Of a stretch of DNA of 64,000 nt, positions 43,919 to 60,748 are shown piece after piece (within the stretch, counting starts at the first letter, position 1; each line of letters begins with the position of its first letter). The DNA is taken from positions 124,001 to 188,000 of the forward strand of contig NZ_JAMBLS010000001.1 in assembly GCF_023336905.1 (NCBI RefSeq), in the 5' to 3' direction. Source of the stretch: Bacteroides sp. ET71. GTDB taxonomy: Bacteria > Bacteroidota > Bacteroidia > Bacteroidales > Bacteroidaceae. A program made the position numbers and the translations under genes. A model generated the notes under the pieces. The model did not search any database. It was given only the letters and a program-made list of their open reading frames with translations, and was not told the DNA's origin.

Positions 43919-45556
43919 TCAGAGGCGGACGACCCGCTCGCAACCGGCGGCCACGGCCTCGTGGTGGGTGACAAAAATGACGGTCCGGCCGGCGTAGTCG
44001 TGCTTCAGGCGGGTGAGGAATTGCCGTTCCGTGTCGGGGTCAAGCGCCGAGGTGGCCTCGTCCAGCAGCAGGATGCCGGCAGGACGGAGCAAAGCACGGG
44101 CGATGGCGATGCGTTGTGCCTGTCCTTCGCTCAGCCCTCCCCCTTGCTCGCCCAGGCTTGCATCGAGGCCGCCGGGCAGGGTAAAGACAAAATCGGCCAC
44201 GGCTGTCCGCAGGGCTCGGCACATGTCTTCGTCCGTGGCTTGCGGATTGCCCATCCGCAGGTTGTCGCGCACGGTGCCGCTGAACAGGGTGTTGCCCTGC
44301 GGCACATAGGTGAAGTTGCAGCGGGTTTCGGCCGACAAGGGGCAGACGCGCTGCCCCACGCGCAGGCAGGCCGTTCCCTGCTCGGGAGCGACCAGCGCCA
44401 GCAGCAGACGCACGAGGGTCGTTTTCCCTTTGCCGGTTTCTCCCACCACGGCCGTGCAACTGCCGGCAGGGAAATCGCAGGAGAAACGTGTGAACACGGC
44501 CCGGTCGCCGGGAGAATAGCGGAACGTCAGGTCGCGGATTTCCACAGCAGGCGGTTCGCGGAAACGAAGCGGTTCTGCCGCATCCTCCACCGATACATGT
44601 TCCAGTTCCAGCAAACGGTCGGCAGCCGTGAAGGCTTCGGCAAAGGCCGGAAGCAGGCGTGCCAGCCCCAAAACCGGCTGTTGTATCTTGCCCACCAGTT
44701 GCAGGAAAGCGGCCATCGTGCCGAAGGTTATCAGCCCTTCGCCCAGTTGCACCGTCCCCCACAAGAATGCTATCAGATAGCCGCCGGAAAAGGCCAGCGA
44801 AACCAGCAGGCGCGAGGCCAGCGAGAAACGGGTGCGCTGCATGACCTGGCCGCTCCATTCCTGTTGCCGCTCGTCCAACCGGCCCACGTGCCGGCGGTTC
44901 TGCTCCAAAGCCTTGACCACCAGTCGGTGCTGCAAACTTTCCTGTATCAACGACTGTATATGGCTGTCGCTCTGCCGGATGGCATGCGTGTACCGGTTCA
45001 TGCGCCGCATATAGAAACGTGCAACCGGCAGGAACAAGGGCATCACGGCCACTACGGCCCAAGGCAGCCAGGGGTCCAGCAGGCAAAAGAAAGCGAAGGC
45101 CGCCAGCAGTTGCACACTCACAATCAGCAGGGAGGGGACGGAGACCGTCAGCAAGCTCACAACAGCCGAGACGTCCCGCTCGACGCGGTTCACGACGTCG
45201 CCCGTGTGAAACCGTTCCAGCTCGTTCCAACGGCTATACAGCAGATGGGCGAACAGACGATGCCGCAGCCCGTTGCCCGCACCTACCTGCATACGCACGC
45301 CAATCCACCCCTCGCACACGTTGCATCCCAACTGCAACAGCAGCAGAAGCAGCAATCCGGCCCCGGCTTGCCACAAGCGGATGCCTGCAACCGCTCCCGT
45401 CGCCACGTCTATCGCCAGCTTGGAAACATAGATGAATGTCAGTGACAACAGCACAGAGCATACGCCCACCAGGCTGTCCAGCAGGATACTGCGCCTCCAT
45501 CCGGCGGAGGCTCCCCACAGATAGGCCAGACTTTCTTTCTTAAACCACCCCCTCAT
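43919..45556 (-). CDS. ABC exporter (fused permease and ATPase)
   Basis: 545-residue half-transporter of the MsbA/lipid- or peptide-exporter type. Six helices fill residues 1-300. The nucleotide-binding domain then has Walker A VGETGKGKTTLV, a signature that reads LSEGQAQRIAIARALL (SEGQ instead of the common SGGQ), Walker B ILLLDEATSALD and H-loop IFVTHHEAV. There is no peptidase C39 domain, so leader cleavage would need another enzyme. The S24/S26 peptidase gene begins upstream and overlaps it by 4 bp (stop at 45553, start at 45556), so the two are coupled. Confidence 0.9.
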   Translation of the reverse strand: MRGWFKKESLAYLWGASAGWRRSILLDSLVGVCSVLLSLTFIYVSKLAIDVATGAVAGIRLWQAGAGLLLLLLLQLGCNVCEGWIGVRMQVGAGNGLRHRLFAHLLYSRWNELERFHTGDVVNRVERDVSAVVSLLTVSVPSLLIVSVQLLAAFAFFCLLDPWLPWAVVAVMPLFLPVARFYMRRMNRYTHAIRQSDSHIQSLIQESLQHRLVVKALEQNRRHVGRLDERQQEWSGQVMQRTRFSLASRLLVSLAFSGGYLIAFLWGTVQLGEGLITFGTMAAFLQLVGKIQQPVLGLARLLPAFAEAFTAADRLLELEHVSVEDAAEPLRFREPPAVEIRDLTFRYSPGDRAVFTRFSCDFPAGSCTAVVGETGKGKTTLVRLLLALVAPEQGTACLRVGQRVCPLSAETRCNFTYVPQGNTLFSGTVRDNLRMGNPQATDEDMCRALRTAVADFVFTLPGGLDASLGEQGGGLSEGQAQRIAIARALLRPAGILLLDEATSALDPDTERQFLTRLKHDYAGRTVIFVTHHEAVAAGCERVVRL

Positions 45557-45999
45557 AACGCCAACCTCCTATACACCGCCAGCACATAACGCCGCCAACA
45601 CCCCAGATGCAGCCAGCACCACGAGTAGATGCGCCACGCCCGGCCGCTGACGGGATACGTGCGCCCCTTGCGTACAACCGACACCGCCACGGCCAACACA
45701 TCGGCGGCTGAAGCCTCTTCTGTCTGATGCACATTGCCGTCACCTTGCAGCCACAACCGCTGCCCGTCCTGACGAACAATGCGGTGCAACACGATGCGCC
45801 CGTCGCCCGCCCGCACCAGAGCCAGCGCCCCGACGCGCAAAGACGACGCTTCGTACGCACACAAGACAACGGCGTCGCGCCCATCGGCCAGAAACGGCAG
45901 CATGCTGTTGCCCCGCACCGGTATGGTCACGGCATAGCCCTGACGCACAAGCTGCTGGATTTCGGGGAGTAGCACCGCATTATCGAAAGTCTTTTTCAT
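45553..45999 (-). CDS. S24/S26-family peptidase (LexA/signal-peptidase-like)
   Basis: 148-residue protein with the Ser-containing motif PVRGNSMLPFLADGRDAVVL (nucleophile S32) and the HRIVRQDG...LQGDGN block of S24/S26 serine peptidases. A general-base Lys is not obvious at the usual place: GALALVRAGDGRIVLHRIV carries Arg. Catalysis might therefore be altered, or the Lys lies elsewhere. The C-terminus is aromatic and hydrophobic (RIYSWCWLHLGCWRRYVLAVYRRL), perhaps membrane-associated. It is the first gene before the ABC exporter. Pairing with an exporter and a PqqD-like protein suggests processing of an exported product. Confidence 0.8.
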   Translation of the reverse strand: MKKTFDNAVLLPEIQQLVRQGYAVTIPVRGNSMLPFLADGRDAVVLCAYEASSLRVGALALVRAGDGRIVLHRIVRQDGQRLWLQGDGNVHQTEEASAADVLAVAVSVVRKGRTYPVSGRAWRIYSWCWLHLGCWRRYVLAVYRRLAL

Positions 46000-46025
46000 A
46001 CATCCTTTATCCTTTCATTCAAAAA

Positions 46026-46050
46026 CGAGGGTGCCCGATGGGCACCCTCT
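46026..46050 (-). terminator. terminator after the OmpA-like gene
   Basis: GAGGGTGCCC (46027-46036) and GGGCACCCTC (46040-46049) form a perfect ten-bp stem with a GAT loop. On the minus strand it is followed by GTTTTTG, so it ends the 46136-47899 transcript. Confidence 0.85.
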
Positions 46051-46135
46051 GCAAACAAAACAAACAAACGGTTCTTCCGGCCACACTTGGCACGGAAGAA
46101 GCAAAAAATCGTTTCACAACGATTATGACCCATAT

Positions 46136-47899
46136 TTACTCGATTACGTAGTGCACCTTGACTTTCACACAGCGGTTCAGTTTGGCGTTCAATCCCCGCG
46201 TGCTTTCGTCGGTCACTGTGGCAATCGGGTCCGTTAAGGCATTGAGTGAAAAGTTATTTCCTACGACTTTCCGGAAATTCTCATTTCCTTTCAGCCACTT
46301 CACAACCGTGTAGGCACGGTTGAAGGCCAGTGTCTTGTTGCGTTCGTGGCCGATGTTGGCAGCATCAGCCCCCGTATAATTGTCTTGGCTGGTAGCCAGT
46401 CCCTCGGCCTGCACATACAAGATACGTCCATTCTCGAAGATATCTTTTATGGCACGTACAGTTGCCGAATCGGCACACGCACCGACGTAGCCGCCCTCTC
46501 CCTCGATGGCTGCATAGACATCGGCAAAACTGTAGGTATCAGACTCGGGATCGGCTTTCATGTTCTGCTTCACCACTTCCAAACCGTCATGGGCATTCAG
46601 GGCATACGAAGCAGTCTCCTTGTAATTGTCGCCGCTCAGCAGGCTCTGGTTCTTGGTTTCATCGTCCACACGGTAGTACCACGTCTTGTTTCCACCGTAC
46701 ACCGGTGCGTAGTAATACCCTTCACGGGCCTTGAAAGCCTCCAGGCTGGCAGCATCCATCTCCAGCGAAATCGGGCTCTTGCTCATCTCATAGCCACGTG
46801 CCACTCCGTCGGACGAAACCTCGGCATTGGCCTTGCCTGTCGGCACATCCGTCGTAGCCAACCGATTCAACGAAGCGCCGGACTTCAGGCGCGAAGCCAC
46901 CTGTCCGTCGTCCACGAACTTCTTCTGCGTGAAGATGCCCGATGCCAGGTAGTCGATGGCATTGACGGCATCACCTTCTACGATAGGCGCATCGTCACGA
47001 CCGGAATAGTTGTTGGGGAAGAACACGTAGAACACGAAAGACTTATACTCCGGACATTTCGTCTCCACGACATTGGTCACAGGAGCCGGTTCCACGATAT
47101 ACACCGGTGCCGGGCAAGCCACGCAACGCTCCCAGCCACGCTTCTTGAAGTAATACGTCAGCCCCACGCGGATGCCCACGTTGCTGTCGAACCACTTGCT
47201 GCCTTCGCCGGTTTGCTTGATAGTCACTCCGTCGAAATTGGTCTGAAACAACGTCGTATATAGCTTTACGTCCAGCGAAACAGCTTTCTTCTTTGTAAAG
47301 AAACGACTGTACTGCAACTCCAGGTGTCCGGCCCATTCATTGCGCTGCGCCGAAATGCCGTAATGATGCAATGCACCCAGGCCGGCGGACAGGATGAACT
47401 GGTTCATCAATTTATCTGAATTGATGCCCTCGTATCCACAGAAAAGGCGGGAGAGGTTGAACATGACGTTGGCGTTCAAGTCCCACCATTTGTACTTGGT
47501 CTCCCAATAAGGCGTTCCGTCATCTGCCAACATGCTTTCGCCTTGTGTAAACATGTTCTCCTCTTTGCTGAATCCCCTGGAATTGCCGATTCCAAACTGC
47601 AGCTTCACACCAATGCCCGGCGTGAACCACTTACCGACACCTACATTGAAATCGGGTGACAGTTTTCCTTTGAAATCTCCCACCGTACCGTAATCACCGA
47701 AAAAGGCATGGCCGCCCACGCTTCCCAAGACAAACCAGTTGTCCCAGAAACGGTTGGTCACCACCCGGTAGCGGTCTTCCGTCGGTTGTACAACCGGGCT
47801 CGCATCTCCTACCACAGTGTCTGCCTCGACTGTCTGTGCATGGATGCCGCCGCAGCAAAAGAGCAGCAACAGCATCACACAAGCTGTAAATTTTTTCAT
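46136..47899 (-). CDS. OmpA-family outer-membrane protein
   Basis: 587-residue envelope protein with a signal peptide (MKKFTACVMLLLLFCCGGIHAQ). The N-terminal half (about 45-270) looks like an eight-stranded outer-membrane barrel (FFGDYGTVGDFKGKLSPDFNVGVGKWFTPGIGVKLQFGIG). A linker and a diverged OmpA-like C-terminal domain follow (HERNKTLAFNRAYTVVKWLKGN...KLNRCVKVKVHYVIE). A PAP-rich segment (ERCVACPAPVYIVEPAPV) separates the halves. It lies 33 bp downstream of the sugar-phosphate transferase gene, probably in the same transcript, and may link the surface polysaccharide machinery to the envelope. Confidence 0.82.
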   Translation of the reverse strand: MKKFTACVMLLLLFCCGGIHAQTVEADTVVGDASPVVQPTEDRYRVVTNRFWDNWFVLGSVGGHAFFGDYGTVGDFKGKLSPDFNVGVGKWFTPGIGVKLQFGIGNSRGFSKEENMFTQGESMLADDGTPYWETKYKWWDLNANVMFNLSRLFCGYEGINSDKLMNQFILSAGLGALHHYGISAQRNEWAGHLELQYSRFFTKKKAVSLDVKLYTTLFQTNFDGVTIKQTGEGSKWFDSNVGIRVGLTYYFKKRGWERCVACPAPVYIVEPAPVTNVVETKCPEYKSFVFYVFFPNNYSGRDDAPIVEGDAVNAIDYLASGIFTQKKFVDDGQVASRLKSGASLNRLATTDVPTGKANAEVSSDGVARGYEMSKSPISLEMDAASLEAFKAREGYYYAPVYGGNKTWYYRVDDETKNQSLLSGDNYKETASYALNAHDGLEVVKQNMKADPESDTYSFADVYAAIEGEGGYVGACADSATVRAIKDIFENGRILYVQAEGLATSQDNYTGADAANIGHERNKTLAFNRAYTVVKWLKGNENFRKVVGNNFSLNALTDPIATVTDESTRGLNAKLNRCVKVKVHYVIE

Positions 47900-47932
47900 C
47901 TTAACTCTATTATTTGAAGGTTTGTTTAATTA

Positions 47933-49339
47933 TTAATATGCATTCTCCTCTCCCCGGATAGCATTGGCCATTGTCTTATATATAATATACAAGTCCAGCA
48001 TAAAGCTCCAGTGCTCGATGTACCAGATGTCGTTGCGTATCCGGTTCTCCATGTCGCCCAAAGCCTTGGTCTCGCCACGGAAGCCGGACACTTGGCTCCA
48101 ACCCGTGATGCCCGGCCTCACATAATGCCGCACCATGTATTTGTTAATCAGCTTCGAATACTCCTCCGTATGTTTCAGCATGTGCGGCCGGGGGCCCACG
48201 ATGCTCATGTCTCCCCGCAGCACGTTGAAAAACTGAGGCGTCTCGTCCAGGTTGCTTCTGCGCAGAAAGTGCCCCCAACGCGTGACCCTCGGGTCGTCCC
48301 GCGTGGCCTGCACGTTATCTGCCTCCATATTCACCCGCATACTGCGGAACTTGTAACAGTAAAATTCCTTGTCGTCCAGCCCGTTCCGTTTCTGGCGGAA
48401 GAACACGGGCCCCGGCATCGTGCTTTTGGTCACAACGGCCACCACCAGCCAGATGACAGGAAACAACGTGCACAGAAACAAGAGCGAAAACACGATGTCG
48501 AAACTCCGCTTCAGCACCTGGTTGCCCAGCCGGCTCAACGGTTCGCGCCGCAACGTCAAATAAGGCACCATCCCTATCCGTTCCAGATACATCTGGTTCT
48601 GAAAATAGTTATGCACGTCCGGCACACTGTAAAAATGCACCAGGTGGTTCTCGCAATAATTGATGAGCTGCAAGATGATATCCTTCTCTGCCGGCGGCAG
48701 ACAACAGAACACATCCCGGATGCGCCCGTGAGCCTTCAAAAAGTCAATAATCGCTTGCGGCTTTCCCCGATAAGGACACTCCTTCGGGAAATCGGGATTC
48801 GGAGCGTTGTCGAAATACCCTGCCACATCATAACCGGCCCACGTCTCCGAGGTCAGTTCATAATAAAGTTGCAGGTTGTTTTCCGTGCTTCCCACCAGCA
48901 ACACTTCCCGGCGGTCTTTCCCGCCCAAGCGCACGCGCTTGATGGCAAAACGGAACCCCAAACGGAAAGCCAGCATACAGACAAACAAGAAGCCGATGTA
49001 GCCGGCAAAGAAATAAGACCACACGTCCATGTAGTCGCCGATGGCCAGGATGACGCCCGCCAATACCGCATACGAACAGACATTCCAACACACCACCGTC
49101 ACAATCTGATAGGCATACACCTTCCGCTTGTACAACATGACGGAACGCTGGGCACTGCACAACAAGTAACACAGCATCAGCGTCAACACGATTTGCAGTT
49201 TCGGTGCGTTCAGCACCTTTGCCCAATGCGTGTTGTCCAGCAACAGACAAAAGAGCTGGAACGCAGCGCCGCACAGCAACGTTTCCAACGTGATGACCGT
49301 GACTTCAACCAACTGATTATATGATTGCATCCTTATCAT
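47933..49339 (-). CDS. undecaprenyl-phosphate sugar-1-phosphate transferase (WbaP/WcaJ type)
   Basis: Starts a polysaccharide repeat unit by moving a sugar-1-phosphate onto undecaprenyl phosphate. The 468-residue protein has four or five N-terminal membrane helices, a CoA-binding-like NAD-type domain (about 140-260, VLLVGSTENNLQLYYEL) and the C-terminal bacterial sugar transferase domain (about 275-468). That domain has LKRSFDIVFSLLFLCTLFPVIW, FFRQKRNGLDDKEFYCYKFRSM, RRSNLDETPQFFNVLRGDMSIVGPRPH and VRPGITGWSQVSGFRG. It marks the entry step of the capsule or exopolysaccharide locus that runs to the right edge. Confidence 0.95.
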   Translation of the reverse strand: MIRMQSYNQLVEVTVITLETLLCGAAFQLFCLLLDNTHWAKVLNAPKLQIVLTLMLCYLLCSAQRSVMLYKRKVYAYQIVTVVCWNVCSYAVLAGVILAIGDYMDVWSYFFAGYIGFLFVCMLAFRLGFRFAIKRVRLGGKDRREVLLVGSTENNLQLYYELTSETWAGYDVAGYFDNAPNPDFPKECPYRGKPQAIIDFLKAHGRIRDVFCCLPPAEKDIILQLINYCENHLVHFYSVPDVHNYFQNQMYLERIGMVPYLTLRREPLSRLGNQVLKRSFDIVFSLLFLCTLFPVIWLVVAVVTKSTMPGPVFFRQKRNGLDDKEFYCYKFRSMRVNMEADNVQATRDDPRVTRWGHFLRRSNLDETPQFFNVLRGDMSIVGPRPHMLKHTEEYSKLINKYMVRHYVRPGITGWSQVSGFRGETKALGDMENRIRNDIWYIEHWSFMLDLYIIYKTMANAIRGEENAY

Positions 49340-49448
49340 GCTTGCCGTTCAGCTTCGTTTTGCGCGCAAAGGAAAAGAAAAAACCAAAGCATGGATAGAC
49401 AGATAGTCACTGCCTGTTGCTAAATTGTCCAATCCTTGTCCAGACATT

Positions 49449-51329
49449 TCAATGTCCGCGTCCGAACAGACGCCCGGCAGCCTTCTGACACAAAAAGAAG
49501 AAAGCCTCGCCCGGCATCAACCGCCACAAGCGGACACTGCGGACCAGCCAGAAGCAAGCATTGCCGCCAATCCGTTTCCAAGCCTGCCGTCTGTCGGCCG
49601 AAAGGGCTTCCCGCTCCATCTTCAACCGGTAACCGTCTTTGAACAAGATGTCTTCCAGCAACCGTTCCGGGCGGCCATGCAGGGGCGGGAAAGGAAAGCG
49701 GAAGCCTTCTCCCAAACGGGCTTCCATAAACCCGAACAACGCCCGGCTAAACCTCACCAGATGCAATCTTCTCAACACCTCCGCCAGCTTTCTTCCGTCC
49801 AACGGCGCCCGACGGAGCATTACCGCCACGTCGCACACTTGCTTCAGGCCGATGCCATAGCTCAGCACATGACGCCGCACGTGCAAAAGCAGGCAGGCTA
49901 CATACAGCTCCACGCCCCACCGGTCGGCCGCCAGCATCCGTTGCAGACGGACATTCAGAAAGGGATTATACACCGTCTCCCGACAGGGATGCAGCTCCAC
50001 CGCCACCCGCCCGTCCTGCAAAGCCAGGCTGTCCTCTTCGTGCCGATAGACGTAACCGGCCTCCCGCAGAAAGGCCTCCACACGTTCCCATCCCCGGCGC
50101 ACCACGAGGTCGATGTCGCCATAACTGCGATACTGTGGCTTGCGATACCAACAGGCCACCGAACTGCCCTTGAACACTTCGGCCTCTATCCCTCGGACCA
50201 CCAGCCTGTCCAGCCACGCTTTTTCAGCCCTGGCCAGCGAAACATTCATCCGCTCGATGTGCAACAGATGGAAAATGCACTGCGTCCACAAAGCCTCCGA
50301 AGGACGACACGCCGTCTGCGACACGCCGTCTATCCACAGGCCCGACACGGCCTGTTCGCGGCTCAGTGCAAAGAGCCGCTGCCAGTCGCCTTCATCCAAA
50401 GGCATCTCCTCTTCCTCCGGAGTTTCACCCCAAAGGCCCAGGCGGAGGAAATAGAAAAAAGTTGACAAGGGAACGAGTTGACGAGTTGACGAGAGACAAG
50501 TTAACAAGGTCTCAGTTGCCTGAAGCCTTGTCCCCTCGTCAACTCGTCCCCTTGTCAACTTATTAACTCGTCCCCTTGTCAACTTGTTAACTGAGAGAAA
50601 CTGCGGCACCTTCCAGCCCATCTTCAGCAATTTCAGCAACACACCCGGGAAGCCGTGACGGCGGTAAATCTCCACATCTTCGCGCCACATCTGCCTGCGG
50701 CGGGCCTTATCGGTAGACAGCCCCCCCATGCGCATCCGCACCACGTAACGGTCGAGATAGGCTACCCGTAAGTGCCTCTCATACAGACAACGCAACAGGA
50801 AATCCGTATCTGCGGCAATCTTATAATGCTCGTCATACGCCCCGACCTTCTCCATCACCTCCCGCCGGATGTACACCGTGGGATGCAGAGGCAACCAGCC
50901 ACACGCCACCTTCCAGCGCCGATACGGCCCGCTCACCCAATCGCGCACCACCCGTTCCGTATCTCTTGCATCGACAAACAACCCGTTGCCATACACCAAA
51001 TCGGCTCCGGTCCTTTCGAAACAGGCGGCAATGTCGGCCACAACGTGCCGGTCGAACAGGAAATCGTCCGAGTGCAACAGTCCCACCACGTCGCCCGTAG
51101 CCAGGCGCAGTCCCTTGTTGATGGCTTCGTACATGCCGTGGTCAGGCTCCGAGAGCAGACGGCCGATACGGTTGCCGTAGCTGCGGATGACCTCCAGCGA
51201 GCCGTCCCGGCTGGCACCGTCCACCACGATGTACTCAATGTCCGGATGCGTCTGTGCCAGCACGCTCCCGATGGCTTGGGCGATAGTGGCCTCGCGGTTA
51301 TAACACGTTGTGATAATGGATATTTTCAC
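49449..51329 (-). CDS. glycosyltransferase family 2 fused to a nucleotidyltransferase-like domain
   Basis: 626-residue apparent fusion. Residues 1 to about 242 are a GT2 transferase (SIITTCYNREATIAQAIGSVLAQ, VDGASRDGSLEVI, DXD-like LLHSDDF, RRHGFPGVLLKLLKMGWKVPQF). Residues about 293-626 form a nucleotidyltransferase (NTP_transf_5-like) unit beginning FFYFLRLGLWGE, with a nucleotidyltransferase motif at YRSYGDIDLVVRRGWERVEAFL. The linker (about 245-290, reading KLTRGRVNKLTRGRVDEGT) is encoded by an intergenic-type inverted repeat at 50461-50596. Each half has the length of a free-standing protein, so two neighbouring genes have probably been joined by loss of a stop codon inside the repeat. 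Confidence 0.85.
   Translation of the reverse strand: MKISIITTCYNREATIAQAIGSVLAQTHPDIEYIVVDGASRDGSLEVIRSYGNRIGRLLSEPDHGMYEAINKGLRLATGDVVGLLHSDDFLFDRHVVADIAACFERTGADLVYGNGLFVDARDTERVVRDWVSGPYRRWKVACGWLPLHPTVYIRREVMEKVGAYDEHYKIAADTDFLLRCLYERHLRVAYLDRYVVRMRMGGLSTDKARRRQMWREDVEIYRRHGFPGVLLKLLKMGWKVPQFLSVNKLTRGRVNKLTRGRVDEGTRLQATETLLTCLSSTRQLVPLSTFFYFLRLGLWGETPEEEEMPLDEGDWQRLFALSREQAVSGLWIDGVSQTACRPSEALWTQCIFHLLHIERMNVSLARAEKAWLDRLVVRGIEAEVFKGSSVACWYRKPQYRSYGDIDLVVRRGWERVEAFLREAGYVYRHEEDSLALQDGRVAVELHPCRETVYNPFLNVRLQRMLAADRWGVELYVACLLLHVRRHVLSYGIGLKQVCDVAVMLRRAPLDGRKLAEVLRRLHLVRFSRALFGFMEARLGEGFRFPFPPLHGRPERLLEDILFKDGYRLKMEREALSADRRQAWKRIGGNACFWLVRSVRLWRLMPGEAFFFLCQKAAGRLFGRGH
50461..50596. repeat. 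inverted repeat inside the fused GT2-nucleotidyltransferase gene
   Basis: The left side contains AGTTGACAAGGGAACGAGTTGACGAGTTG words, and the right side the complements CAACTCGTCCCCTTGTCAACT, repeated with AACTCGTCC and TTGTTAACT. Such low-complexity words normally occur between Bacteroides genes. Here the whole repeat reads open in frame. Confidence 0.75.
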
Positions 51330-53091: not shown

Positions 53092-53712
53092 TCAGCATTT
53101 CTTCTGCCTTTTTTCGGGAGGAATATAATTATACCTATACTTTTTATATTCTTCTTCAGGTATCCGCTCTCCTCTGACTTGGCAGGGTGCTCCGAAAGCG
53201 ATTGTATTCTCAGGAACATCTTTCAACACCACACTTCTAGCACCTATTACGGCCATCTGACCGATCGTAACCCCCTTTCCAATGTAAGAATCAGCCCCAA
53301 TAAATGCGCCGTTGCCAATGTGTATGGGTGACAAATCCGATGCGAAATTTCGAGAACGGACATCGTGTCCCCCAGGTATTATATGTACAAAATTGGATAT
53401 GCTTACATAATCTCCAATACAAATCTTAGTACGTGGCTTAATATAAGCATAGTCATCAATAGACACAAAATTACCAATTTCAATATTCCAAGGAATAAAG
53501 ATTGTACTTTTAGGGGAGATATAACATCCTCTCCCTATTTTTGCACCGAAACACTTTAAGAGAAATACCCTCCATTGAGTCAAAGGATTCAAACTGGTTT
53601 TAAACAGCAATGTATCTACACATCTCCAAACCAACAATTTAATTTTATATCTTCTTGTTACATTCTGCGTTTTAGCATCACGCACAAACCACAAATCTTT
53701 TTCCATGATCAC
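53092..53712 (-). CDS. WcaF-like sugar O-acetyltransferase, second copy
   Basis: 206-residue hexapeptide-repeat acetyltransferase related to its downstream neighbour. It shares the FKTSLNPLTQWRVFLLKCFGAKIGRG opening pattern, a PKSTIFIPWNIEIGN block and the C-terminal ITIGQMAVIGARSVVLKDVPENTIAFGAPC-type turn (here VTIGQM). An internal ATG at 53706 would shorten it by two codons. The C-terminal extension is basic (EEEYKKYRYNYIPPEKRQKK). Transcription is continuous with the glycosyltransferase gene upstream, which overlaps it by 4 bp. Confidence 0.88.
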   Translation of the reverse strand: MIMEKDLWFVRDAKTQNVTRRYKIKLLVWRCVDTLLFKTSLNPLTQWRVFLLKCFGAKIGRGCYISPKSTIFIPWNIEIGNFVSIDDYAYIKPRTKICIGDYVSISNFVHIIPGGHDVRSRNFASDLSPIHIGNGAFIGADSYIGKGVTIGQMAVIGARSVVLKDVPENTIAFGAPCQVRGERIPEEEYKKYRYNYIPPEKRQKKC

Positions 53713-54800
53713 ACCTTATCTTGCAGATACATATTATATAAACTCACAGCCACACTTTTAGTAGAATACTTTTCTTCAACCAATTTCCTTCCATTACTCC
53801 CCAACTTCTTCAATTCATCATCACTCAATGAAAGCAAACGGGAAACAGCCTGTTTCAAAGAATCCTTGTCACGTCTTACCCAACAGCCACAATGATATGT
53901 TTCCAAATCTCTCCATGGCGTACCTTGGGTTGTAATAACGGGGGTACCACAAGCCAAAGATTCTGCTATGACATACCCAAAGTTTTCACTGTAAGAAGGA
54001 AGGATAAAGAAATCACTATTACGATACAATTCCCATTTACTCTCTCCATAAACCCCACCGACAAAAACAATATTCACCAAATCTATCTGCCCGACACGTT
54101 TTTTTAGAGATGCAACATAAACCGACTCACCTTCTCCAGCTATAATCACCTCATAGTTTCTCAACCTATCTTTCAAATCTTCCAAGACTTCAAGTAATAG
54201 TTCGATACCTTTTTTCTGGTGTAGTCGAGACATATACAAAATACGCTTGTTAATCTTCCACCCCTTCTTTACCCCTACATTTGCGACATCAACACCATTG
54301 GGAATAGTTATGACATTCATATTATATCCCAACTGAAGAATATTTTCCTTTTCACTGTCAGCCGTAGCAATCAACGCAGTAGCGCTTTTCAATGCTTTCT
54401 TCTGAAATAAAAACAGTGCAAACTTTTTCTTCAACGGATGCCTATTTAGAATCCAAGGTTCAAGCATGCCATGAAGGGTAATATATGTCCTTATCCCTCT
54501 CTTTAAAGCCTCTCTTTGGATAATCCACGTTTGAATCATCCAAATGCCATTGATATGTACCACATCCGGATGTTCTTCTTCCAGTATATCTATCCATTGT
54601 TTTCTAAAATTCCCAAGCTGACTTACAGGTAATGGCAAATATATAACTTTGCAATTTTCCAACAACAACGGATTCTGAGTTGGACGCGTTACAACAATTA
54701 AATCCACTATTTTGCCCAACTCTTTTGTCAAAAGCTGCATATACATCGAGACCCCTCCCAAAGAGCGATCTATGGCTGTGACAAAATGAATGACTTTCAT
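53709..54800 (-). CDS. glycosyltransferase family 4
   Basis: About 363 residues from the ATG at 54800 (MKVIHFVTAIDRSLGGVSMYM). A start seven codons earlier at 54821 is also open. It has the GT-B fold: an N-terminal acceptor domain with VVHINGIWMIQTW, then a C-terminal donor domain with RILYMSRLHQKKGIELLLEVL and the nucleotide-sugar motif FILPSYSENFGYVIAESLACGTPVI, including the paired Glu residues of the EX7E motif. It acts at the cytoplasmic face on the growing lipid-linked oligosaccharide. Its donor and linkage cannot be predicted. Confidence 0.92.
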   Translation of the reverse strand: MKVIHFVTAIDRSLGGVSMYMQLLTKELGKIVDLIVVTRPTQNPLLLENCKVIYLPLPVSQLGNFRKQWIDILEEEHPDVVHINGIWMIQTWIIQREALKRGIRTYITLHGMLEPWILNRHPLKKKFALFLFQKKALKSATALIATADSEKENILQLGYNMNVITIPNGVDVANVGVKKGWKINKRILYMSRLHQKKGIELLLEVLEDLKDRLRNYEVIIAGEGESVYVASLKKRVGQIDLVNIVFVGGVYGESKWELYRNSDFFILPSYSENFGYVIAESLACGTPVITTQGTPWRDLETYHCGCWVRRDKDSLKQAVSRLLSLSDDELKKLGSNGRKLVEEKYSTKSVAVSLYNMYLQDKV

Positions 54801-55042
54801 TGGCATCTTATCTCCTAACAAACTTCATTGTACATTTAATTTCTAAACCTGCATCCGTCAAAGCACAGCCTCCGCTTTGTGAATCTGCTCCGACATGGCA
54901 GACTGACGATTGTCGTGACAAGTTGTCTGCATATTATAATCCGCCTACCCCAGTCAAAAACTCACGTTCACCTTTGTCGCAGACTCTCTCCAATACATAT
55001 TCCGTAGTAACCAAAATACATTTTAGTTTGTTTAAAAATCAA

Positions 55043-55855
55043 CTAAGATTCTGACTGTATTGAGGAATAAACATCGTTCAACAATGGAATCTGAGCCTCT
55101 CGATAGAACATATCCAATAACCCACCATTAGTCAAATTTACAACCTTTATAGAATGTTTTCCACAATAACTCGCCAATCTATTCAAGTCATGCAAATGTC
55201 TAGAATGCATTAAAAGATCAATAGCCAACTGAGATGTAGATTTTCCCATCAACTCTTCATCATTCCCATAAAAATGGCTTTCCGAAGACTGAATCATTTC
55301 ATATGCAATCCCAGTTGCATCAAACCCAGTAAAATATATTGTATCAAATAATTGCTGTATAGCAAAATCAAAGCATGCTCCCGAAACCCCAAGGTTATAA
55401 AAAGGTAAATAAGATTTTAGCCAATAAATTCTTGCATCTTTCCTATATGAACAGAGTAGAGGATCATTATACCAAGACAATGGCAAGATTATTTTTGTAT
55501 CAGGGCTCAATTCCCAAATTTTATCCAACCAAGCTATCGGCCATACCCCCTTCAACATTTTAGCATCTATAAATACATGGTACTTCGGTTGTAACTCTTT
55601 ATACATTGGATGCATAAAACCCCGATTCACAAACATAAGATTAGTACCCTTTAAAACACTTAAATCCTGTGTTTTTAGTGAAGGAGCATTTAATACAATA
55701 TATAAATTCTCTCCTCGTCCATCTCTAGGCAAACTATTCATCTTTTTACTTATTTTCCATAGAGTTGGATTTAAGCAGAACTTAACTTTACGAATATTCT
55801 CTATCAAAGACAATATGAAATCATCTTTGCGTAACATTAACGTCCAAAAATCCAT
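55043..55855 (-). CDS. unrecognised protein with a GT42/DUF115-like N-terminal motif
   Basis: 270 residues, no signal peptide. I do not recognise the family with confidence. The N-terminal part has LYIVLNAPSLKTQDLSVLKGTNLMFVNRG (from residue 51). This resembles the strand-loop NxGPSL element of GT42 sialyltransferases and of DUF115 (MptE-like) proteins. A later block, YFTGFDATGIAYE, fits the GxDxT region of that fold. It follows the CMP-sugar-synthetase-like gene by 15 bp. A transferase using the CMP-sugar made by its neighbours is a reasonable guess, not more. Confidence 0.5.
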   Translation of the reverse strand: MDFWTLMLRKDDFILSLIENIRKVKFCLNPTLWKISKKMNSLPRDGRGENLYIVLNAPSLKTQDLSVLKGTNLMFVNRGFMHPMYKELQPKYHVFIDAKMLKGVWPIAWLDKIWELSPDTKIILPLSWYNDPLLCSYRKDARIYWLKSYLPFYNLGVSGACFDFAIQQLFDTIYFTGFDATGIAYEMIQSSESHFYGNDEELMGKSTSQLAIDLLMHSRHLHDLNRLASYCGKHSIKVVNLTNGGLLDMFYREAQIPLLNDVYSSIQSES

Positions 55856-55870
55856 AACCTTATAACAGCA

Positions 55871-56557
55871 TCATAACCTATTTCTCTCAAAAATCATCTC
55901 TGCAATGGCAAAATCCTCTTCCCAGTCGATATCGAATGATTGCAATTTATTCATAAGATATAGAAAGGGATTTTTACCTATACGATTTCCTGTTGTCACA
56001 TAAATTTCTTTTGAAGCTATAAACATTGCATGATTAATTTCATACAATGGAAACAAATCCTGCGTCCGAGGCCAAAGCAAAGGTGTCGTATTATTAATGA
56101 GCTTTCCCTGCTTATTCAAAAGAAAATTCTTCAATTCAACTACAGAAACCAAAGAATCATATCCCTTCTTCAACATCGAAAAATATACGTCAATAGCCCT
56201 ATCATACATTTCCGCCCCACAAATAGGTGTAGTCACATGTCCCCACAAAATATGTTCGGCTTCAGTTATTGTTGGCACATAACGAATCAAATCTTGCAAA
56301 TTTGTTGAACTAAGGCATAAAGATTCTGGACGTGGAATAATTCTAAGCCGTCTATCTGAAATATATTTCGATGCAATATTTATACATATTTCATCATTTG
56401 TTGAAAGAATTATTTCATCTATCCGCTTCGATGCAGTCAATTGTTGCAGTTTATTTTCAATCAAACCACCATTGATATGAGCAAAAGGACGAGTATTCTT
56501 ATCTTTCACACGCTCACTACCTTTACGTGTTGGAAGGAAAAAGGCTATTTTATCCAT
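55871..56557 (-). CDS. acylneuraminate cytidylyltransferase-like protein
   Basis: 228-residue enzyme of the CMP-ulosonic-acid synthetase family (NeuA/KdsB-like), which activates a keto-sugar acid with CTP. The nucleotide-binding signature is LPTRKGSERVKDKNTRPF (residues 8-25), where family members have IPARxGSKRIPxKN. Other family features are IDEIILSTNDE and ILWGHVTTPICG, and the C-terminal FDIDWEEDFAIAEMI holds the usual acidic pair. The protein is shorter than NeuA (no acetylesterase domain). Its substrate need not be sialic acid. No neuB or neuC homologue is visible in the window, but an aldolase-like gene lies next to it. Confidence 0.85.
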   Translation of the reverse strand: MDKIAFFLPTRKGSERVKDKNTRPFAHINGGLIENKLQQLTASKRIDEIILSTNDEICINIASKYISDRRLRIIPRPESLCLSSTNLQDLIRYVPTITEAEHILWGHVTTPICGAEMYDRAIDVYFSMLKKGYDSLVSVVELKNFLLNKQGKLINNTTPLLWPRTQDLFPLYEINHAMFIASKEIYVTTGNRIGKNPFLYLMNKLQSFDIDWEEDFAIAEMIFERNRL

Positions 56558-56581
56558 TATACAAAGTTCCCAATAACATGT

Positions 56582-58114
56582 TTACAAAAACTGATAGATA
56601 GACTCAACATTCAGTTCACTATAGGATGTTGGAGTAAGCGACCTCAACACAACATTCTGTGTCGGGAATTTTGAGAAAATAAAACTATTTTCATGAGCCA
56701 ATTCAGAATCTTTTGCGGAAAGGCTCTCTCCTTGATATCCATCATATCCGACTAAATTAATAATAGAAGCATTAAAAAAGAGAGCAGTCTGTAATGCTAT
56801 CACCGTACAAGAATCTTTATAACAATTTATAAAATCAACAGAAGGTAACTCATACGTACAATTCTCCGCAAACTCAGGAACTTCAGTCCCCATCAGCCTA
56901 GGATAAGGAGGCAAAATACAAATACCATTAAATTTATCTGATGACAAATTTGCAGCTAATCGTTTTGCTTCATTACCAACTAAACAGTAATATTTTTCAT
57001 TCGATAAATCAGTATAATAAGCTACATATCTCGAAGTAGCAAAAATAATAGCTATATGAGGATTCTTTTCAAGATACTCTTTTATTGCATCAAGATGTTC
57101 CATCGGCGATCTTCCGCCACCAATTACAAGAACCTCACATACCGTATGTCGTTTCAGCAATTCATAATGTGCATTATCCTCTACATGTATGCGCTTATTA
57201 TCCAATGCCCGAACTATACTATTAAAACTATAAGTACGATTCATACACCATGACATAACCTCCTTTTGTGGAATAGAATTAGCCCCGGAAAGCATATAAG
57301 GCAAGTTTGTGCCCCATGTATATTTTTGATACAATGGTTGAAAAACAGATATCAATTCTCCCAATATATTGAAATCAACTTCCAATCCATCCTTCTTATT
57401 TAAATACGTCAACAATAATTCCATATTCAAATTACCGGCTCCTCTTCCCATACCCAATATCGTAGCATCTACCAAATCAGCCCCACATTCTATAGCTGTT
57501 AATGTATTAATTAATCCCAATTGAAGATTATTATGTCCATGAAATCCTATTTGACAAGCAAGCATTTTCCTTACCATACAAAATATTCTTCTCAATTCTT
57601 TAGGAGTAATACCTCCAAAAGAATCCACCATACAAAACAAATCCACATAATCTTCAATCTGGCTCAATTTGGAAAGAAAAGCATTGTTTTCTTTCCACTT
57701 CGATAGATACATGACATTAACGCCTACTCCAAGCCCTAGAGATTTTATTATTTTTGACAAAACAATAGCTTGTTCAATACGTTCTGGGGCTACAGCTATA
57801 CGTACCATATCTACCAATCCTTGAATAGGAAGCAGCAATTTATCCAAGTCATTAGCTATAACACTTTTTTCATTTAACATAACCACTAACTTCTTATTCG
57901 ATAAATCGCGCAAATGTTTTAATACCGAAAAAGGGGTATAACCAAACTTACCTATGTACTCTTGGACAGGATTATTTCGATAACCTATTTCCAAATAGTC
58001 AACTGGCAATTTATTCATCGCTATAATATAGGCATCAACAAGGTTATCCTCAAAATCCCAGTTCGTGTAATAACCTCCATCACGGAATGTGCAATCTAAT
58101 ATTCTAATTTTCAT
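56582..58114 (-). CDS. HMGL-type aldolase fused to a DUF115-like domain
   Basis: 510-residue protein in two parts. Residues 1 to about 260 form a DRE-TIM/HMGL barrel: LDCTFRDGGYY (D7, R11, D12), the metal ligands H192 and H194 with N195 in GFHGHNNLQLG, and GMGRGAGNLNMELL. This is the fold of 4-hydroxy-2-oxovalerate aldolases, which make or break C-C bonds on alpha-keto acids. Residues about 325-510 begin VLVIGGGRSPMEHLDAI and look like a separate Rossmann-like (DUF115-type) domain. It overlaps the glycosyltransferase gene upstream by 11 bp and precedes the CMP transferase gene by 24 bp. A role in building an unusual ulosonic acid is inferred. Confidence 0.8.
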   Translation of the reverse strand: MKIRILDCTFRDGGYYTNWDFEDNLVDAYIIAMNKLPVDYLEIGYRNNPVQEYIGKFGYTPFSVLKHLRDLSNKKLVVMLNEKSVIANDLDKLLLPIQGLVDMVRIAVAPERIEQAIVLSKIIKSLGLGVGVNVMYLSKWKENNAFLSKLSQIEDYVDLFCMVDSFGGITPKELRRIFCMVRKMLACQIGFHGHNNLQLGLINTLTAIECGADLVDATILGMGRGAGNLNMELLLTYLNKKDGLEVDFNILGELISVFQPLYQKYTWGTNLPYMLSGANSIPQKEVMSWCMNRTYSFNSIVRALDNKRIHVEDNAHYELLKRHTVCEVLVIGGGRSPMEHLDAIKEYLEKNPHIAIIFATSRYVAYYTDLSNEKYYCLVGNEAKRLAANLSSDKFNGICILPPYPRLMGTEVPEFAENCTYELPSVDFINCYKDSCTVIALQTALFFNASIINLVGYDGYQGESLSAKDSELAHENSFIFSKFPTQNVVLRSLTPTSYSELNVESIYQFL

Positions 58115-59099
58115 ATAGTCGATTATATAAATCTAAATATTTCCTTGCTACAATTTCACTTCTATATTGCATCACATTTTTCAATCCTTTAGAAATAATA
58201 TCATCTCTATATATTTTATCTTTCAGTACATTACAATATACACTCCTAATACTTTCTACTGAATAAGGATCACATAAACAAGCTCCATTTCCAGCGACTT
58301 CCCTCATTGGACTTATATCCGAAGTAATAACAATACGTCCCATAGCTTGGGCTTCAATGATTGGCATTCCAAATCCCTCATGAAGAGAAGGGAAATTTAT
58401 TATATCTGCATTTTTATATTCCTCTAGCAAGTCATTCTCACTTAAATCATAAGCATTATAATAATTTATTCCATATTTTTCTAACAGATATAAATCATTT
58501 CTCGAGATCTTTCCAATAATTCTTAAATGGCAGCGAATAGTAGATAAGGCTTCTATTGTTCGTGACAAGTTTTTATGAGGCCTCGTTCCAATATGCAATA
58601 TAGTAGGATTATCTTGATTAAAATACTTTTCTACAAATCGGTAATTATCACTTACCGAATCTGGTATAATAGATATCTTATTTCGCGACAAAGGAATGTA
58701 ATGACAGACTTCCTGTTCTGCAAATTTTGATATAAAAACTATTCTTGAAGCAAATTGTAATGGGAGTACTCTTAAAATCCAATAAAAAAAGCGTTTAACA
58801 CAGCTAATATTTTTAATACGACCAATATCATGAACTGTCACTATTGTCTTTCTATCCCATAAAGCCAAAGTGATATAGTGAACATCTCCCGTTATATGAA
58901 ATATCGCATTAGGATGAAGGTTTGCTATATTTCTTACTTGTTTGATATTATTCAAAACATCTCTAACGGATCCGCTTAAGCCAACAACATCAATAGAAAA
59001 CACATTAATTTTATTAAGCAGATAAGGAATCATATTAGCAAAGACTTTGTGTATGCTATATCCACATTGAGGATTCCTATTAATATATACTACTTCCAT
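58104..59099 (-). CDS. glycosyltransferase family 4
   Basis: 331 residues from the ATG at 59099 (MEVVYINRNPQCGYSIHKV). The frame is open to 59144, but those 15 codons show no domain features. GT-B-fold signs are IFHITGDVHY and VTVHDIGR in the acceptor half, LHIGTRPHKNLSRTIEAL at the linker and INFPSLHEGFGMPIIEAQAMGRIVITS in the donor half. The coding region is strongly AT-rich, as are its neighbours. It is coupled to the aldolase gene by overlap. Confidence 0.9.
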   Translation of the reverse strand: MEVVYINRNPQCGYSIHKVFANMIPYLLNKINVFSIDVVGLSGSVRDVLNNIKQVRNIANLHPNAIFHITGDVHYITLALWDRKTIVTVHDIGRIKNISCVKRFFYWILRVLPLQFASRIVFISKFAEQEVCHYIPLSRNKISIIPDSVSDNYRFVEKYFNQDNPTILHIGTRPHKNLSRTIEALSTIRCHLRIIGKISRNDLYLLEKYGINYYNAYDLSENDLLEEYKNADIINFPSLHEGFGMPIIEAQAMGRIVITSDISPMREVAGNGACLCDPYSVESIRSVYCNVLKDKIYRDDIISKGLKNVMQYRSEIVARKYLDLYNRLYEN

Positions 59100-59167
59100 A
59101 ATTACGTAATCTATCATGCAAAATCCAACATCACAATATTTCAATTTTCATTAATGATGACATACTT

Positions 59168-60748
59168 TCAAAAGGAATGTTTACTATCAGAAAAATTATT
59201 CTTATTGATTATTTCGAGAAACATTCTTACCAAATATGTCACTATTCCAAAAATTAATATTCCCTGCCAATACCCCCGCAAAAGATATCCCAAATCATCA
59301 ATACATCCATTTGCATTACGAAACATTCCTAAGAAAACGAACAAACTAATCAAACCATATAAAGAATAAACATTTGAGTTTGAGAAGTAATAGACAAGTG
59401 TATTCAACAATTTGAATACGAGAAAGAAAAGCAGAAATTGAATGACAAAATAAAAATAACCAAAAGTCGCCAGTCCATCCCCCAAATGGCTTGTTACCCG
59501 ATAACTTGGGAAAATGCTTTCATTACGTGCTAACGCATACAATAAATCTCCTCTTGAATAATCAAAATCGTTTTTATTCAAATGAATACCCATAAAATCT
59601 AAAGCCGGCGTAGGAAACGACAAAATAGCTCGATTATAAAAGTGAGTTCGCATCTTCTTTTTATCTTCTTGTGACAATTGGAAGGCATAATACAATGTTT
59701 GATCTGTTATACGAATATTACAATAACGATTTAACATGAAATTATTAACATAGGATTCAGTCCATCCCTCATCATACTTTACCAACTTCTTACTCTGTTC
59801 CCGTTCTGCCAACCTTCTTAATGAAACTATCAAATCTTTGTCCTCATAAGTATCCATTGTTCTTGCAAGCAATTCCCTTTTTGTTACTTGGGAGCGGAAA
59901 AATCTATTATACAACATCGCTGTAGATAGATCAGCCAAAAGTCCCAATAATAAATAAACGACCATGCCTCCCACAACTATTTTGACGGGAGACAAGTATT
60001 TGACCAGAGGTTCTTTTCTATTACAGACTTGCAAAAAATACAAAAGAACCAGCAAAGCAAAAGGAGCAATCAATCCCTCTCTACTGTTGCTGGCCACACC
60101 GAACAAGATGAGCATCACGACATAACCAATCAAGACTGTTTTCATAGCATCACTTATTTGCAAATTCCTATTCCCATAAAGCCTAGGGAAGAATAATACT
60201 ATCGGTGCATACATTAAGAAAGTTAATCCGCTCAGCAATTTACCCAAGACGTTGCCGTATTGAATATCGCCCATGGAGAAAGTATATAGACGTACCAAAA
60301 GCCCTACCAACCCAATAGCCCATACGACCGATACCGGATAGTTCTCGTAAAAATGCCCTTTCTTTAACAAGCACTGCAACAAATTGTCATGACGTCCCCT
60401 CATAAAAGAGGCTCTAAACGCCAATGCAGAAACTATGAACAACAAAGTTTCGAAAAAGAAGGTATAAAAAGGCAACTGTAGACCGTAGGTAATTGGCTTT
60501 CCTTCGAGTAAAGTGGCAGGTAAAGGCAAAAAGCGATAGAAGAACATACTCATGAACATCAGGAAAGCAAAAGGATACTTGCAAATTACTGTTGACTTCA
60601 AAAAATACGTATCAAAAATCAGCCAACAGAAAAATGTCATAACACATCCACTCACATTTTCCCAAGAAGGAAACACACACAATTCCGCCACAATGGAAAT
60701 ATAGAGGATGATTTTCAATATCTTATGCAATAATATGACGGCTGTCAT
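59168..60748 (-). CDS. Wzy-like O-antigen/capsule polymerase
   Basis: 526-residue integral membrane protein with about eleven hydrophobic helices and a long hydrophilic loop (about residues 285-420). That pattern is usual for Wzy polymerases, which join repeat units in the periplasm, while sequence identity within the family is very low. There is no other motif. Its position in the middle of a glycosyltransferase cluster supports the call. It overlaps the downstream-transcribed neighbour by 4 bp (ATGA at 60745). I see no Wzx flippase in the window, which may lie beyond the right edge. Confidence 0.75.
   Translation of the reverse strand: MTAVILLHKILKIILYISIVAELCVFPSWENVSGCVMTFFCWLIFDTYFLKSTVICKYPFAFLMFMSMFFYRFLPLPATLLEGKPITYGLQLPFYTFFFETLLFIVSALAFRASFMRGRHDNLLQCLLKKGHFYENYPVSVVWAIGLVGLLVRLYTFSMGDIQYGNVLGKLLSGLTFLMYAPIVLFFPRLYGNRNLQISDAMKTVLIGYVVMLILFGVASNSREGLIAPFALLVLLYFLQVCNRKEPLVKYLSPVKIVVGGMVVYLLLGLLADLSTAMLYNRFFRSQVTKRELLARTMDTYEDKDLIVSLRRLAEREQSKKLVKYDEGWTESYVNNFMLNRYCNIRITDQTLYYAFQLSQEDKKKMRTHFYNRAILSFPTPALDFMGIHLNKNDFDYSRGDLLYALARNESIFPSYRVTSHLGDGLATFGYFYFVIQFLLFFLVFKLLNTLVYYFSNSNVYSLYGLISLFVFLGMFRNANGCIDDLGYLLRGYWQGILIFGIVTYLVRMFLEIINKNNFSDSKHSF

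Follow-up and report, generated by a model that had tools for sequence, protein, structure and literature searches.

The contig NZ_JAMBLS010000001.1 of Bacteroides sp. ET71 (RefSeq assembly GCF_023336905.1) carries, within the 64,000-nucleotide stretch analysed here (positions 124,001 to 188,000 of the forward strand, referred to as the window), three consecutive open reading frames (ORFs) on the minus strand, in the order that a first-pass annotation of the bare sequence had given them (58114-56582, 56557-55871 and 55855-55043). The first (56582..58114, 510 aa) encodes an HMGL/DRE-TIM aldolase (residues 1 to about 310) joined to an MptE/GT42-like C-terminal domain (about 320-510) and is the proposed ulosonate-forming enzyme; the second (55871..56557, 228 aa) encodes a cytidylyltransferase resembling the synthetases of cytidine monophosphate (CMP)-ulosonates, of a PseF-type lineage that is found beside such aldolases; and the third (55043..55855, 270 aa) encodes a Maf/GT42/MptE-like protein with an NAPSL motif, the proposed CMP-ulosonate transferase. 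The gaps within the trio are 24 and 15 bp, and because each of the three ORFs belongs to a conserved family they are not chance ORFs. From family relationships and gene order we consider it likely that a CMP-activated 3-deoxy-2-ulosonic acid is made and used here by a widespread module, of which the trio is one form and which does not call on the condensing enzymes NeuB or KdsA.

The 510-aa protein is an HMGL-type aldolase, as had been claimed for it, by its match to PF00682 (1.9e-19 in Pfam), and its residues 1-317 match the solved structure 3dxi with an E value of 1.7e-148. The latter is deposited in the Protein Data Bank as a 'putative aldolase', a name that gives no function, and represents the barrel domain; its 320-residue chain is without the C-terminal domain. 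After 3dxi, the nearest named relatives of the barrel are the 4-hydroxy-2-oxovalerate (HOA) aldolases of the DmpG/BphI type (1nvm, 2.8e-15 with the single sequence; 4lrs, 6.7e-25 with a profile), which are like it in fold, and the DRE-TIM metal/pyruvate-site residues (Arg, Asp and His-x-His) align with those of 1nvm, 4lrs and 8ih7. Homocitrate and isopropylmalate synthases match the barrel more weakly, and for this reason an enzyme of either type was rejected. All 36 alignment rows that cover Arg11 and Asp12 conserve both residues, and Ser165, His192 and His194 are invariant in all 38 aldolase rows. The residue that follows the RDG motif is Tyr15 in 36 of 36 covering rows as against His in the three HOA aldolase chains compared, a His that we take to be the catalytic base of those enzymes, and the HOA reaction can therefore not be carried over to the window aldolase. 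As the Arg, Asp, Ser and His residues are kept but this one His is replaced, the barrel is probably active, with an acceptor that is probably something other than acetaldehyde. Membership among the HOA aldolases themselves was rejected, on the Tyr at the position of the catalytic His and on a score of 85.8 bits against the NCBIfam equivalog, below its cut-off of 286; no acylating acetaldehyde dehydrogenase was found among the seven neighbours of the trio searched with Pfam and NCBIfam. Also unlike HOA aldolases, the aldolases of the module carry an MptE-like domain or, on viral contigs, a KdsB domain. Two weak hits in the window's own genome (L002 and L003) sit elsewhere in that genome.

The evidence that carries the proposal is the association of this aldolase with CMP synthetases. 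The 228-aa protein of the window was rightly called synthetase-like, with a match to PF02348 over the cut-off (1.2e-6) and 51.7 bits against the PseF model, well under the cut-off of 205.7. We compared 38 loci with a fused aldolase (the window, L013-L036, L039, L051, L083-L086 and L094-L100), setting aside G480 (L043/L052, with a short unfused relative), Leisingera M527 (H2), L. caerulea (L110) and all viral loci. A CMP synthetase lies within four genes of the aldolase in every one of the 38 and is adjacent to it in 30; in 29 it lies directly downstream, on the same strand and with gaps of -38 to 98 bp, where random gene order in the fetched stretches would give 1.2. (The synthetase of L029 was recognised by Pfam and NCBIfam and not by the models built for this analysis.) With these numbers a chance neighbourhood of aldolase and synthetase is rejected, and the link between the two is strongly supported.

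Matches to the aldolase itself are patchy. At the level of the phylum 9 of 395 genomes gave one, at that of the order 6 of 393, in the genus 3 of 158 and in the window's own family 3 of 151 (one of these an unfused relative); in another family 5 of 199 genomes matched, and in a third 2 of 11. There is overlap between these sets, and the genome of the window, or that at the centre of the set, is counted in them. Scanning named genomes yielded 15 loci, among them two in Alphaproteobacteria and one in a Burkholderiales genome. Such patchiness is what one would expect of capsule genes moved between strains, and together with the looser attachment of the third gene it could be taken to mean that these proteins are exchanged freely among capsule loci and that the trio is no pathway at all. 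We regard this as highly improbable, given synthetases at all 38 loci, their excess directly downstream and the gene fusion found on 29 viral contigs (below), and for the aldolase and synthetase it is largely refuted.

For the third gene, an MptE-like protein lies within six genes of the aldolase in 9 of the 38 loci, one of these weakly. The co-occurrence of the whole trio, proposed at the outset as a check, is borne out within the genus, in which all three aldolase carriers among 158 genomes (the window, L094 and L095) possess the full set of genes, the third as a clear orthologue (53% identity to the window's protein in L094 and 63% in L095); across the wider set it is borne out for the aldolase and synthetase, whereas the third gene is linked only loosely. 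In L094 and L095 a gene for a kinase like that of 2-keto-3-deoxygluconate (KDG) lies inside the trio, with one further ORF in L095.

By profile, the third protein is alike to the Maf, GT42 and PF01973 (MptE-like) proteins. Alone it has no meaningful Pfam match, PF01973 included; a profile built from the window protein together with three relatives finds the Maf structure 5mu5 (5.7e-9), the GT42 enzyme Cst-II (3e-5) and MptE 8sd5 (4.6e-3), and the NAPSL motif can be read directly, so that its description as GT42/DUF115-like stands. Maf enzymes accept both CMP-N-acetylneuraminic acid (CMP-Neu5Ac) and the CMP-activated form of 3-deoxy-D-manno-octulosonic acid (CMP-Kdo; PMC11339370), and PMC7387560 predicts Kdo transferase activity for a capsule ORF of E. 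coli K15 whose fold matches are to Maf and CstII. The C-terminal half of the aldolase is likewise MptE/DUF115-like, detectable by profile only. Ten of 15 family members match PF01973 in this domain at a permissive limit of E 1 (best 3.7e-5), and at the same limit a few match Rossmann-type families; the window's own domain, taken by itself, has no match of any kind at E 1. In a profile-profile comparison the C-terminal domain matches the four-row family of the third protein with a probability of 94.8%; it may transfer or bind a CMP-sugar.

The linked synthetases are of two types. At 25 of the 38 loci they are PseF-like and at 11 KdsB-like, one locus having both and one a divergent PseF-like enzyme. 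In a tree of 54 cytidylyltransferases the 11 KdsB-like linked rows form a clade (support 98) beside presumed housekeeping KdsB, and 17 PseF-like linked rows form another (95), which is joined with less support by three rows from loci that bear an HpaI-type aldolase and by one unlinked row; the linked row of L029 groups among NeuB-linked synthetases on a long branch. On the aldolase tree the synthetase type switches 10 times, at least seven of these switches being forced by well-supported branches, a number no lower than with shuffled labels. It follows from these repeated switches that two groups of enzymes known for the activation of 3-deoxy-ulosonic acids are used in turn with one and the same aldolase.

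The association is also found, as a gene fusion, on contigs classed as viral. A scan of the IMG/VR collection, on whose classification the viral status of these contigs rests, with the aldolase profile gave 54 loci, and on 29 of the contigs (L124:4995-6707 and 28 others among L116-L147) one intact ORF encodes the aldolase barrel and a KdsB-like synthetase in a single polypeptide, amounting to 15 distinct proteins at 95%; a further such fusion, on L138, is cut by the contig end. When three of the fusions were searched against NCBIfam, the cut-offs of two curated KdsB subfamilies were both exceeded by L124 and L116 (255 and 193 bits), and only the second by L144. In a tree, the KdsB halves of the viral fusions fall together with 10 of the 11 bacterial KdsB proteins linked to an aldolase, and apart from presumed housekeeping KdsB (SH-aLRT 97). 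An MptE-like ORF cluster occurs on 13 viral contigs (one of three tested members passes the PF01973 cut-off), short ORFs bearing a HAD-like motif are frequent (one of two tested has a sub-cut-off HAD match), and proteins of the GT29 sialyltransferase family are encoded on L124 and L115. On L118 and L148 an unfused aldolase has a separate synthetase alongside, and the MptE-like domain is therefore not needed for the pairing. One viral aldolase (L132) is without a synthetase, and the more distant viral aldolases of L149-L168 have none within four genes. As a separate observation, many of these distant, unfused aldolases (L149-L167) have neighbours of about 600 and 285 aa together with SDR-like genes, and perhaps belong to another pathway. 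A search of phage records returned two partial matches at <30% identity, and a megablast of the locus against plasmids returned nothing useful.

A NeuB-type gene that might supply sialic acid to the locus was not found: PF03102 has no match in the whole genome of the window (99.58% complete), while the same search was positive in 9 of 14 well-known genomes, a Bacteroides included, and supply of the sugar in trans by NeuB was accordingly rejected for this genome. For KdsA, a Pfam search confined to the 20 ORFs of about 38-64 kb, with the rest of the genome not searched for it, found no KdsA-type synthase. Across the aldolase-bearing genomes the picture is more mixed, and it is here that one must consider whether the module merely boosts or remodels ordinary CMP-Kdo or sialic acid made elsewhere, with the aldolase modifying or recycling it. 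Nine of 14 aldolase-bearing genomes have a NeuB match, and five, the window's among them, have none; a cytidylyltransferase other than the aldolase-linked one, however, lies within about 5 kb of 11 of the 14 NeuB matches listed (the exceptions are both matches of G005, one of them weak, and that of G561), and in G320, G578 and G655 NeuB and its own synthetase lie as a second module no more than about 10 kb from the aldolase pair. As for Kdo, some linked synthetases exceed KdsB subfamily cut-offs and the KdsB-like clade stands beside presumed housekeeping KdsB. No separate high-scoring KdsB is listed in four of the 14 genomes (G054, G112, G123 and G203), and in G123 the aldolase-linked gene is the only KdsB match listed. 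The other ten genomes, that of the window included, do have a separate high-scoring KdsB-like gene listed, and ordinary Kdo would not explain the exchange of PseF-type for KdsB-type synthetases under the same aldolase. We therefore think that the boosting of an ordinary sugar is quite improbable as the function of the module. The modules of G112 and G123 (L028, L029 and L031) occur in genomes that have neither a NeuB match nor a cytidylyltransferase match beyond the linked ones.

Beyond the synthetase, a HAD phosphatase is encoded within five genes of the aldolase in 25 of the 38 loci; on two annotated Leisingera plasmids (one of them L110 of L. caerulea) the order is aldolase, KdsB, HAD. In five loci a PfkB kinase resembling KDG kinase (that of L051 matches 2afb at E 1.3e-92) lies directly after the CMP synthetase (L094:10766-11800, L095:5269-6360, L051:4398-5450, L097:11080-12108 and L099:11070-12098), in the slot that is held by the HAD phosphatase elsewhere, and the two never occur together in any of the 38. 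Eight loci have neither, including the window and L015, whose contig ends there. An epimerase-like SDR protein is encoded in five of the 38 loci. Within the capsule locus of a related genome we also noted a MenD-like thiamine-diphosphate enzyme (L051:12505-14274).

Several observations weigh against the proposal that the HMGL aldolase builds the activated acid. An HpaI-type aldolase is encoded directly after it in four loci (L017, L028, L029 and L032), and with a second aldolase adjoining, the ulosonate in these four may be formed by an enzyme other than the HMGL protein; the view first taken, that the HMGL aldolase is the only C-C bond enzyme in sight, thus applies to the window-locus proteins searched and not to all of its relatives. 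The window locus has neither HAD phosphatase nor kinase, and in its genome a HAD search with a single-sequence query, which makes for a weak and uninformative negative, gave no match. The simple scheme set out below explains neither the HpaI loci nor this missing phosphatase. To these may be added the Tyr15 that takes the place of the HOA-aldolase His, the linked KdsB of L015, which falls on the housekeeping side in the tree with the viral fusions, unlike in the 54-row tree, and five unfused bacterial relatives (L040, L041, L113, L114 and L052) that are without a CMP synthetase in the flanks covered, plasmid gene tables being incomplete, so that the fold alone does not predict one. The relative in L052 (7727-8674) follows genes that, named by eye, are aspartokinase-, threonine-synthase- and chorismate-mutase-like. 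Two further unfused relatives, on plasmids, came without gene annotation.

An alternative is that the HMGL protein makes some other sugar part or precursor while the 2-keto-3-deoxy skeleton is supplied either by an HpaI-type aldolase or by central metabolism (KDG from uronate breakdown, for example) and is then CMP-activated, as the HpaI genes, the KDG-kinase-like genes that follow the synthetase and the substituted His might all suggest. In 34 of the 38 loci, however, no HpaI gene lies within six genes, a KDG-kinase search of the genome of the window at E 1e-20 gave no match, and the viral fusion to KdsB puts the product of the HMGL enzyme beside the step that consumes cytidine triphosphate (CTP). 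On balance we hold this explanation to be unlikely, if less so than the others considered here, and prefer the HMGL aldolase as the source of the acid.

On that preferred reading, the aldolase, as a relative of the pyruvate-dependent HOA aldolase, would couple pyruvate to a sugar or triose aldehyde, which in many hosts would be phosphorylated; this would be the reason for a HAD phosphatase in the module, and where needed that enzyme would take off the phosphate, although the window locus showed no such gene. A KdsB-like or PseF-like synthetase would then, to judge from its family and from the gene fusion, convert the acid with CTP to its CMP form, and the Maf/GT42/MptE-like protein would move the acid from CMP to a capsule intermediate, a transfer in which the aldolase's own C-terminal domain would perhaps take part as well. 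A hint of a six-carbon acid comes from the KDG-kinase-like partner, and our guess is that the product is a KDG-like hexulosonic acid. The suggestion of the first-pass annotation that the trio could build, activate and transfer an unusual ulosonic acid is in this way favoured by the aldolase-synthetase linkage, the viral fusion and the lack of a NeuB match; across all loci the third gene is only loosely linked.

The logic is that of the Kdo pathway (KdsA-KdsC-KdsB), in which a C-C bond enzyme, a HAD phosphatase and a CMP synthetase follow one another and to which one type of linked synthetase is similar; unlike in that pathway, the proposed C-C bond enzyme is of the HMGL type and not KdsA, and the majority of the linked KdsB-like synthetases fall outside the presumed housekeeping KdsB group. 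The module likewise recalls the nonulosonic acid pathways (NeuB/PseI/LegI followed by NeuA/PseF/LegF) in the PseF-like synthetase of the window and in the proposed use of Maf/GT42-fold proteins for transfer, and differs from them in that the window's genome has no NeuB match and the linked PseF-like synthetases are a separate clade, with one exception.

By its gene content, the surroundings of the trio are those of a capsule-type locus. Upstream of the aldolase, and overlapping its start by 11 bp, lies a GT4-type glycosyltransferase gene (58104..59144, by family search; probably of the same operon), followed by a candidate Wzy-like polymerase of 526 aa (59168..60748) with a weak Wzy_C match below the cut-off. 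On the other side of the trio are a second GT4-type glycosyltransferase (53709..54821), a WcaF-like hexapeptide acetyltransferase (53092..53712), both identified by family search, and a priming sugar-phosphate transferase (47933..49339; Bac_transf and CoA_binding_3), all of these genes being on the minus strand. Past the window end the same contig has flippase-, Wzc-like- and export-protein-like sequences, as read by eye only. Adjoining the priming transferase, a group of genes at 43919-51134 encodes by Pfam an ABC transporter, an S24-like peptidase and an NTP_transf_5 nucleotidyltransferase, as well as a 587-aa protein without a Pfam match, and resembles a separate export or peptide system.

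The Klebsiella K38 capsule contains a 3-deoxy-pentulosonic acid. A literature search for such an acid in capsules gave no paper, and in the passages of PMC4616057 consulted on the K38 capsule the terms aldolase, cytidylyl and ulosonic are absent. No description of a pairing between an HMGL aldolase and a CMP-ulosonate synthetase was found in the literature searched, consisting mostly of titles and the openings of abstracts. The passages of PMC13171606 that were consulted mention ulosonic acid transferases in general terms only. We offer more tentatively, as a possibility that we would not yet rate at even chances, that there is a further class of CMP-ulosonic acid pathways beside the NeuB and KdsA types, in which an HMGL pyruvate aldolase would provide a short 3-deoxy-2-ulosonic acid (possibly, with glyceraldehyde or its phosphate as the partner of pyruvate, a KDG-like hexulosonic acid), to be CMP-activated for the capsules of Bacteroidota and some Proteobacteria, and of which viruses of bacteria would encode a fused form together with transferases of their own. 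The viral fusion, encoded by one gene, lends itself to direct expression and testing. If the proposal is true, a function would be at hand for the solved structure 3dxi and for proteins that are now named only 'aldolase catalytic domain-containing protein', and bacterial surfaces would bear sialic-acid-like sugars that are missed by searches for NeuB or KdsA, their condensing enzyme belonging to a different family.

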